Origin: a bacterium
GTDB taxonomy: Bacteria; Myxococcota_A; Bradymonadia; UBA7976; UBA1532
DNA length: 60,996 bases
Assembly: GCA_030426085.1 (NCBI GenBank)
Contig: JAUHYW010000065.1
Coordinates: forward strand, 1 to 60,996
Direction: 5' to 3'
Position 1 is the first letter of the stretch, and each line of letters starts with the position of its first letter. Shown in pieces: positions 26,152 to 29,100 of the stretch. Under the pieces are notes generated by a model. That model ran no database searches. It was not told the DNA's origin and worked only from the letters and a program-made list of their open reading frames with translations. A program made the translations under genes and the position numbers.

Positions 26152-29100
26152 ATGCGCCCTCCGCTGCTGATCGCCGCCGCTCTGTTTCTGCTCTCGTCAC
26201 CGGCCGGGGCCCAGCTCCGGCAACCCGACGGCGCAGCCATCCCCGCGGGCAATACGCTCGACAACGCGATCAATACGCCCCCGCTCAACGAGGGCATCGA
26301 CGTGCGCAACGACGCCAGCCTGGTGCCGGAGGTCTTCACCCCGGCCCAGGTGCTGACCTTCCGCTTCATCGCCGAGGGCGCGGGCTACGAGAACGCGTTC
26401 GGCTGGTACAACCTGGGCGACGACGTCTCGAACCCGGCCAACCGGCACATCATCTTCACCTGCGATGTCGAGCCGGAGAACCCGTTCGTGACCCGGCAGG
26501 TCGACTTCTGTCAGGAGCGGGCCGCCGGCCGCTGGCGGGGCGGGCCGATCGGGTTCTTCCTCATCACCCCCGAGCGGGTCGACGGGGGCGGGCGGCGCAA
26601 CCCCAACTGCGCGGTCAACGACAACGTGGGCTACATCTACTACTCCGAGCCCCGGCTGAACCTCGAAGACCCGGTCAACCCCTATATCCACCACCTGGTC
26701 TACCGCTCGAACCGGATCCAGGACGCCTTCTACTTCGGCTTCGAAGACCTCTTCCGCGGCGGCGACAACGACTTCGAGGACGCCCTGGTGCTCGTCGAGG
26801 GGCTGCTCGTCGGCGACGCGCCCGAGGTGTGCGACGGGGCCGACGACGACTGCGATGGGCGCGTCGACGAGGGCGCCGATCGGGTGTGCGAGAGCGCGTG
26901 CGGGGTCGGGGTGCAGGTCTGCAACCAGGGCGGGCTGGGCGCGTGCACGGCCCCCGAGCCGGCCGCCGAGCAGTGCAACGGGGTCGACGACGACTGCGAC
27001 GGGGCGCTCGACGAGGGGCTGACCCGGGCCTGCGCGAGCGACTGCGGGGCCGGGGTCGAGGTCTGCATCGCCGGCGCGTGGGCCGGCTGCACCGCGCCCC
27101 AGCCCCGGGCCGAGGGGTGCGACAACGTCGACAACGACTGCGACGGATCGGTGGACGAGGGGCTGCGGGCGCCGTGCGCCAACGGCTGCGGGGTGGCCGG
27201 CGAGACCCGCTGCGTGGCGGGCAGCTTCGTGCAGTGCGACGCGCCGGCTCCGGTGGCCGAGCTGTGCAACGGGCTCGACGACGACTGCGACGGGGTGGTC
27301 GACGAGAACCTGCGTCAGGCGTGCCAGTCGGCGTGCGGCCAGGGGCTGGCCCGCTGCGTGGACGGCGCGTTCGTCGACTGCTCGGCCCCGGCCCCCGGCG
27401 AGGAGGTCTGCAACGGGGCCGACGACGACTGCGACGGCACGGTGGACGAAGCCCTGAGCCGACCGTGCGACGCGGGCTGCGGCGAGCAGGGGGTCGAGCA
27501 GTGCGTGGGCGGGGCCTTCGTGGCCTGCTCGGCCCGGGCGCCGCTGCCCGAGCGGTGCAACGGGATCGACGACGACTGCGACGGCGCCACCGACGAGTCG
27601 CTCGACCGGGCCTGCGTGACGGCCTGCGGTGAGGGGCGGCAGGCGTGCGTCGGGGGGGCCTACTCGGCGTGCGACGCCCCGCTGCCCGAGCCCGAGCAGT
27701 GCGACGCGGTCGATCAGGACTGCGACGGCAACATCGACGAGGGGCTGACCCAGGCCTGCCGCTCGGCGTGCGGCGACGGCGTGCAGCAGTGCGTGCTGGG
27801 GCAGTACGGCGACTGCGACGCGCCCGAGCCGGTCGAGGAGACCTGCGACGGGACCGACGACGACTGCGACGGCGCGATCGACGAGCAGCTCGAGCAGGCG
27901 TGTGACTCGGCCTGCGGCATCGGCACCGAGATCTGCGTCGAGGGCGCGTGGGGCGGCTGCACCGCGCTCGACCCCATCGAAGAGACCTGCAACGGCCTGG
28001 ACGACGACTGCGACGGCACGCTCGACGAGCAGCTCATGCGCCCGTGCCAGACCCCGTGCGGCGAGGGCATGCAGGCCTGCGAGGGCGGCCGGTGGAGCGC
28101 CTGCCCGGCGGCGGCGGCGAGCCCCGAGGTATGCGACGGGCAGGACAACGACTGCGACGGGGTCACGGACGAGATGGTCGAGTGCCCCGGGGAGTCGGCC
28201 TGCGTGCGCGGGGTCTGCGCCGATCCGTGCCAGAACCAGGAGTGCCCCCCGGGCCTGATGTGCGAGGGCGGCTACTGCATCGAGGAGCCGTGCCGCGCCT
28301 GCCGGGCGTTCGAGATCTGCCGGGCCGACGCCTGCGTCGATCCCTGCGCCGAGACCGACTGCGCCGAGGGCGAGTACTGCCGGGAGGGCGCCTGCGAGCC
28401 GGGGGATTGCGTCGAGGGCGGCTGTGATCCGGGCAAGGTGTGCGTCGGCGGGGCGTGCCTGCCCGACGACTGTGATCTGATCAACTGCGCGGCCGGCTTC
28501 GGCTGCCGCCTGGGCCAGTGCTTCGCCACCTGCGTCGAGCTGCCCTGCGCGGCGGACGAGCGGTGCATCGGCGGCATGTGCATGATCGATCCCTGCGCCG
28601 GGGTGCAGTGCGACGACGGCCAGCGCTGCGCGGACGGCGAGTGCGAGGCCGATCCGTGCGCCGGGCAGTCGTGCGCGGCGGGCGAGGTGTGCGCCGGCGG
28701 GGCCTGCGCCGAAGACCCGTGCCTCGCCGCCCGCTGCCCGACCGGCAGCACCTGCGCCGTGGCCGCCGACGGCGAGGTCGAGTGCCGCCCCGACGTGCCG
28801 GATCCCGAGCCCGAGCCGGACCCCGAGCCCGATCCGTGCGATGGGGGGGTGTGCGACGGGGGCCCGCCGAGCCCCGAGCCGACCCCGGCGGTCGACGACG
28901 AGAGCTGCCGGGCGGCCCCCGGCGACGGCCCGAGCGACGGCGCGTGGCTGCTGCTGCTCGTGATCCCGCTCGCGCTGCGCCGCCGACGGGGGCTGGCGCT
29001 GCTCGCCGGCCTGACCCTTCTGGGCTGCGTCGCCCCGACCGAGGTCGAGCCGGGTACGCCCGACGGGGGCGGGACGGTGCCGGTCGATCCCGGCTGCCTG

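Follow-up and report, generated by a model that had tools for sequence, protein, structure and literature searches.

The closest described case is MXAN_5598 of Myxococcus xanthus. Internal MYXO-CTERM motifs have been called rare, and this protein is the one example given, comprising an adhesin, the MYXO-CTERM motif, a beta-barrel and OmpA (PMC11980579). It was proposed that its N-terminal part is processed and that two genes have been fused, and the overlapping traA/traB ORFs were cited (PMC11980579). The MYXO-CTERM motif is cleaved by MrtX in M. xanthus and also in E. coli, the substrates of the cleavage assays having a free C-terminus; partial surface localization persists without MrtX, and Lgt is the candidate enzyme for lipidating the MYXO-CTERM cysteine (PMC11980579).

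Here we analyse a gene located in a 60,996 nt stretch of myxococcotal DNA (the window). As in MXAN_5598, a MYXO-CTERM motif lies inside the open reading frame and a second exported domain follows downstream. The second part of MXAN_5598 is, however, an outer-membrane beta-barrel/OmpA, whereas the window gene continues with a lipoprotein carrying a lipobox. With the MYXO-CTERM/MrtX system the gene shares the signature cysteine, the hydrophobic helix, the arginine cluster and a cognate CPBP protease in the genome, but its signal is found mid-ORF and is then followed by a second signal peptide. Likewise, the junction has the positive n-region, the h-region and the LLGC lipobox of Lgt/LspA lipoproteins, but this signal is internal and takes its n-region from the tail of another sorting signal. 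Judging by its name, midcut-by-XrtH (NF033207) also concerns a sorting signal cut in mid-protein, and two junctions match its model weakly; it is however an exosortase H substrate. The cytochrome b/c1 precursor FbcH of Bradyrhizobium is a single ORF for two membrane or exported subunits which are separated by signal peptidase and encoded by separate genes in relatives, but it has neither a C-terminal sorting signal nor a lipobox. In the literature on internal lipoprotein signals, midcut-by-XrtH and lipo-invert we found no relevant paper, and the literature searched mentions neither a junction from MYXO-CTERM to lipobox nor its conservation, its frequency or an exchange between this fused form and overlapping genes.

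Results

The gene and its junction

The ORF on the plus strand is open over 1844 codons from ATG 26152 to 31686 and no stop separates its two halves, A and B.

26152..31686, + strand: whole ORF of the putative polyprotein, likely ATG start (the mechanical ORF start is TTG 26071)
26152..26211, + strand: half A N-terminal Sec signal peptide MRPPLLIAAALFLLSSPAGA, from the sequence
26539..26799, + strand: half A DUF4114 domain (PF13448), 1.7e-9
26842..28158, + strand: half A MopE-type DxDCDG repeats, ten, matching PF11617
28225..28797, + strand: half A Cys-rich CxxGxxCxxGxC repeat region, from the sequence
28903..28989, + strand: internal MYXO-CTERM SCRAAPGDGPSDGAWLLLLVIPLALRRRR, TIGR03901
28906-28908, + strand: codon of the MYXO-CTERM signature Cys 919 (numbered from ATG 26152), from the sequence
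28939-28977, + strand: first hydrophobic stretch GAWLLLLVIPLAL, from the sequence
28960..28962, + strand: GTG proposed as internal start, unlikely; inside the first hydrophobic stretch, best anti-SD duplex -2.5 kcal/mol
28978-28989, + strand: arginine cluster RRRR, from the sequence
28978..29028, + strand: half B lipoprotein signal with RRRR as n-region, from the sequence and conserved in relatives
28990-29025, + strand: half B h-region GLALLAGLTLLG, from the sequence
29017-29028, + strand: lipobox LLGC, from the sequence
29026-29028, + strand: codon of the predicted lipidated Cys 959, from the sequence
29128..31128, + strand: half B MopE-type repeats, eleven, matching PF11617
31279..31671, + strand: half B FGE-sulfatase domain (PF03781), 1.9e-12

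A sequence-only reading of the window had pointed to a MYXO-CTERM tail fused in frame to a lipoprotein signal. The fusion is indeed stop-free at this place and the tail is recognised by TIGR03901, whose cut-off is 20 bits: half A alone scores 22.6 bits, the junction piece 25.6 bits and the whole fused ORF 19.7 bits, and across different sequence contexts the match amounts to 22.6-26.7 bits. The motif is not at the extreme C-terminus, as 898 residues follow it. The arginine cluster then leads into GLALLAGLTLLGC, so that n-region, h-region and a lipobox ending in [GAS]C are present as in a standard lipoprotein signal, which here is internal and not the N-terminus of the primary product; in the split orthologues described below it is N-terminal. 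Both halves are rich in MopE repeats as the same reading had it. Downstream of the motif there is no outer-membrane beta-barrel or OmpA domain but MopE repeats and the FGE-sulfatase domain. The C-terminal domain of half B is variable, since three other homologues scanned have BNR-like repeats at this place.

The suggestion that one hydrophobic/arginine stretch serves both signals does not hold. There are two separate stretches with only RRRR in common, and relatives also have two, with loops of up to about 40 residues. An AlphaFold model of the junction is of low confidence (mean pLDDT 60) and uninformative; it has one helix, 38-59, which runs through RRRR, and the second half is not resolved.

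The window contains two more MYXO-CTERM tails, at 20318-20413 and 36059-36148, and both are terminal. The latter, on ORF 34001-36154, is weak with 16 bits.

Conservation of the junction

The same fused ORF is found in a genome of the same genus and in two order-mates (1856, 1896 and 1937 aa). Further homologues were collected from a phylum sample and from a scan of named genomes, whereby we regarded short DUF4114 proteins (about 470-770 aa, with at most one MopE repeat) as separate paralogues and did not count them as fused or split. At least nine family codes are represented among the fused copies. We read 40 distinct ones, and without exception their junction consists of the signature cysteine, a hydrophobic stretch, a loop rich in arginine and lysine, a second hydrophobic stretch and [G/A/S]Cys.

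The loop carries three to nine positive charges and few acidic residues. Its sequence drifts, the distance between the two cysteines being 39-73 residues in the 37 fused copies measured, while both cysteines are constant. The junction alone matches TIGR03901 with E <= 0.1 in 29/37 copies. Position -1 of the lipobox is G, A or S in 37/37 measured junctions, a pattern which the search itself demanded, and position -3 is loose in several relatives. The other frames of the measured junctions contain stops (+1 frame in 27/37, +2 frame in 9/37) and thus it is not trivial that the junction frame stays open. In four close pairs the dN/dS of the junction is below 1 (0.25-0.80), these being rough values for short stretches. 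In most relatives (L040, L041, L049 and others) half B continues after the lipobox with C-x-[VE]-[DE]-P-[FY]-C or similar, a motif absent from the window's lineage.

These data bear on two other explanations. The window stems from a draft genome of 178 contigs, and two genes could have been joined by an assembly or sequencing error or by a recent loss of a stop codon. But the junction layout is conserved across families, hence the fusion is not an error: the gene is also fused in the same-genus genome, in the order-mates and in homologues across the phylum, among them a single-contig genome (G200) and one of two contigs (G356). The conserved open frames rule out an assembly error and the one-off stop-codon loss that had been considered alike. 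Secondly, only one of the two sites might be used, for example that of LspA, with the hairpin remaining as a tail on A, or that of the myxosortase, with a signal anchor left on B. The loose -3 position in some relatives and the partial surface localization seen without MrtX (PMC11980579) would fit such a scheme. As both signals are conserved across families, we consider it quite improbable.

Homologues with separate genes

The sequence-only reading had asked for separate homologous genes in relatives, and these exist. In 18 further homologues A and B are encoded by two genes, A ending directly after the arginine-rich tail; two of these are from Polyangium fumosum DSM 14668 (L240) and Polyangium sp. 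y55x31 (L236). Thus, A and B can each be produced and exported on their own. The start of B overlaps the stop of A in 18/18 cases (ATGA, GTGA or TGATG). The split B genes that were scored encode a lipoprotein signal of their own, and a strong Shine-Dalgarno sequence precedes them within the A tail (-9.5 to -13 kcal/mol); a GTGA pair has a weaker one of -5.2 kcal/mol. According to a maximum-likelihood tree built on the DUF4114 domain, at least three changes between fused and split forms are required, and starred branches force each of them. The number of changes gives no direction, but fused copies occur in all parts of the tree. From the sequences, the fused and the overlapping-gene forms both keep A and B coupled, either by fusion or by translational overlap.

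It had also been proposed that half B is additionally initiated within the ORF at GTG 28960, so that two overlapping products arise. This codon is in frame, and in the split relatives an overlapping codon does serve as the start of B. However, the anti-Shine-Dalgarno energy at GTG 28960 is only -2.5 kcal/mol compared to the -9.5 to -13 kcal/mol of most split B starts, the fused genes have neither a consistent internal Shine-Dalgarno sequence nor a conserved internal start, and the full-length protein would still carry B on the tail of A. On these energies we discarded the GTG as a start, and overlapping products are very unlikely.

Internal motifs in the genome and the phylum

We decoded, from fetched stretches, all 80 MYXO-CTERM motifs of this genome above the cut-off and seven weaker ones. 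Whereas MXAN_5598 is a single described example, 12/80 motifs are internal here (and two of the seven weaker ones), in addition to the split orthologues of the window gene. Every internal motif is directly followed by a second signal peptide, judged by eye from a hydrophobic stretch and either a lipobox or an AxA-type site. Junctions of the lipobox type are the one in the window and those at C150:42663, C5:35214 and C47:25278. The signal-peptidase-I type is found on contigs C44, C173, C17, C106, C31 (twice), C70, C6 and C34 and at C47:90110. Six of the second halves have OmpA and two match Phenol_MetA_deg, one of these also having OmpA. The layout is like that of MXAN_5598 at C106, C173, C17, C44, C70 and C31:51833.

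Two of these loci are described here individually. On C47 (88430-90199), two similar DUF2330-type proteins, each with its own MYXO-CTERM, stand in tandem in one open frame of 1157 codons and are joined via a signal-peptidase-I-type signal; DUF2330 was matched on the second. On C150, the internal MYXO-CTERM (42663-42752) lies in an open frame of 5439 codons, is followed by the lipobox LVGGC, and the second half is MopE/beta-propeller-like.

With a profile of the junction we searched 141 genomes of the phylum; in about 24 further genomes, from at least 13 families, there were matches that span most of the profile and contain no stop. We decoded the best 21 matches. Eleven of them are internal, and here too a signal peptide comes after every one. 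In one of these (L169, contig C180 of genome G078) a stop occurs about 30 residues after the lipobox LLAGC; its second half is possibly decayed or frameshifted. The internal MYXO-CTERM with a second signal peptide is a pattern wider than the window gene, a recurrence which the sequence-only reading had missed.

Candidate processing enzymes

Each of 26 genomes with fused or split genes has one Mrt_core match above the cut-off. The myxosortase of this genome is MrtP (NF040674, 357.6 bits at a cut-off of 250); to our knowledge, MrtP itself has not been tested experimentally. There are two LspA and three Lgt-family genes. Two of the latter are arranged in tandem adjoining lspA (contig C140, 46311-48755), and a further Lgt is located on C170 and a further LspA on C160. 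The extra Lgt copies are candidates for the acyltransferase of MYXO-CTERM.

The protein could also stay uncut, with the double hydrophobic segment holding both halves in the inner membrane as a single protein whose two arms reach into the periplasm. A hairpin of the form TM-Arg-TM is plausible as an anchor, and most sequence features would be the same for such a two-helix anchor. On the other hand, both processing cysteines are kept in 40/40 fused homologues in spite of a freely varying loop, separate halves are enough in 18 homologues, and the cognate proteases are encoded in the genome. An uncut fusion is thus unlikely, though less so than the use of one site only.

Discussion

We suggest that the product of the gene is probably a membrane polyprotein comprising two proteins of the cell envelope, from which a hairpin would be removed by myxosortase and LspA. 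The open frame, the two signals, their conservation, the split orthologues and the presence of the enzymes are read from the sequences directly; from these we infer the topology, both cuts, the lipidation, the stoichiometry and a joint working of the halves. Of the three options given by the sequence-only reading, the best support is for a polyprotein that is cut at the sorting signal, given the retention of both signals, the variable linker and the split relatives, and the stop-codon loss and the GTG start fall away.

The processing could proceed as follows. Half A would pass the Sec translocon by means of its N-terminal signal peptide until the hydrophobic segment of the MYXO-CTERM acts as stop-transfer sequence and the arginine cluster remains cytoplasmic. 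Re-insertion of the second hydrophobic segment, now acting as internal lipoprotein signal, would then be followed by export of half B. The myxosortase, here MrtP, would cut just after Cys 919, Lgt and LspA would lipidate Cys 959 and cut before it, and the 39-residue hairpin would be discarded. Finally, A would be anchored by its C-terminal modified cysteine and B by its N-terminal lipidated cysteine, one to one. The relatives could reach the same coupling of A and B through overlapping genes, and in the beta-barrel/OmpA versions of this genome a signal peptidase I (LepB) site might take the place of the LspA site.

It is already known that a MYXO-CTERM can be internal as a rare case; the lipobox junction, the alternation of fused and split forms and the recurrence appear to be new. 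On balance we also favour, with some reservation, a more general view, namely that Myxococcota have envelope polyproteins in which a sorting signal and a signal peptide form a disposable hairpin, whose removal by a myxosortase and a signal peptidase yields surface pairs at 1:1, and that fused and overlapping forms interconvert.

As the myxosortase and LspA sites lie on one hairpin, one reporter construct would be enough to ask which enzyme attaches the lipid to the MYXO-CTERM cysteine. The interdependence of the two cuts and the function of a sorting signal in mid-protein become testable as well. About 15% of these sorting signals in the present genome would be misread by annotation pipelines which expect them at the terminus only.

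In summary, the sequences suggest that in these bacteria paired surface proteins are made as one precursor and then cut apart. If true, this would be an unusual case of a bacterial precursor that is routinely processed into two surface proteins.
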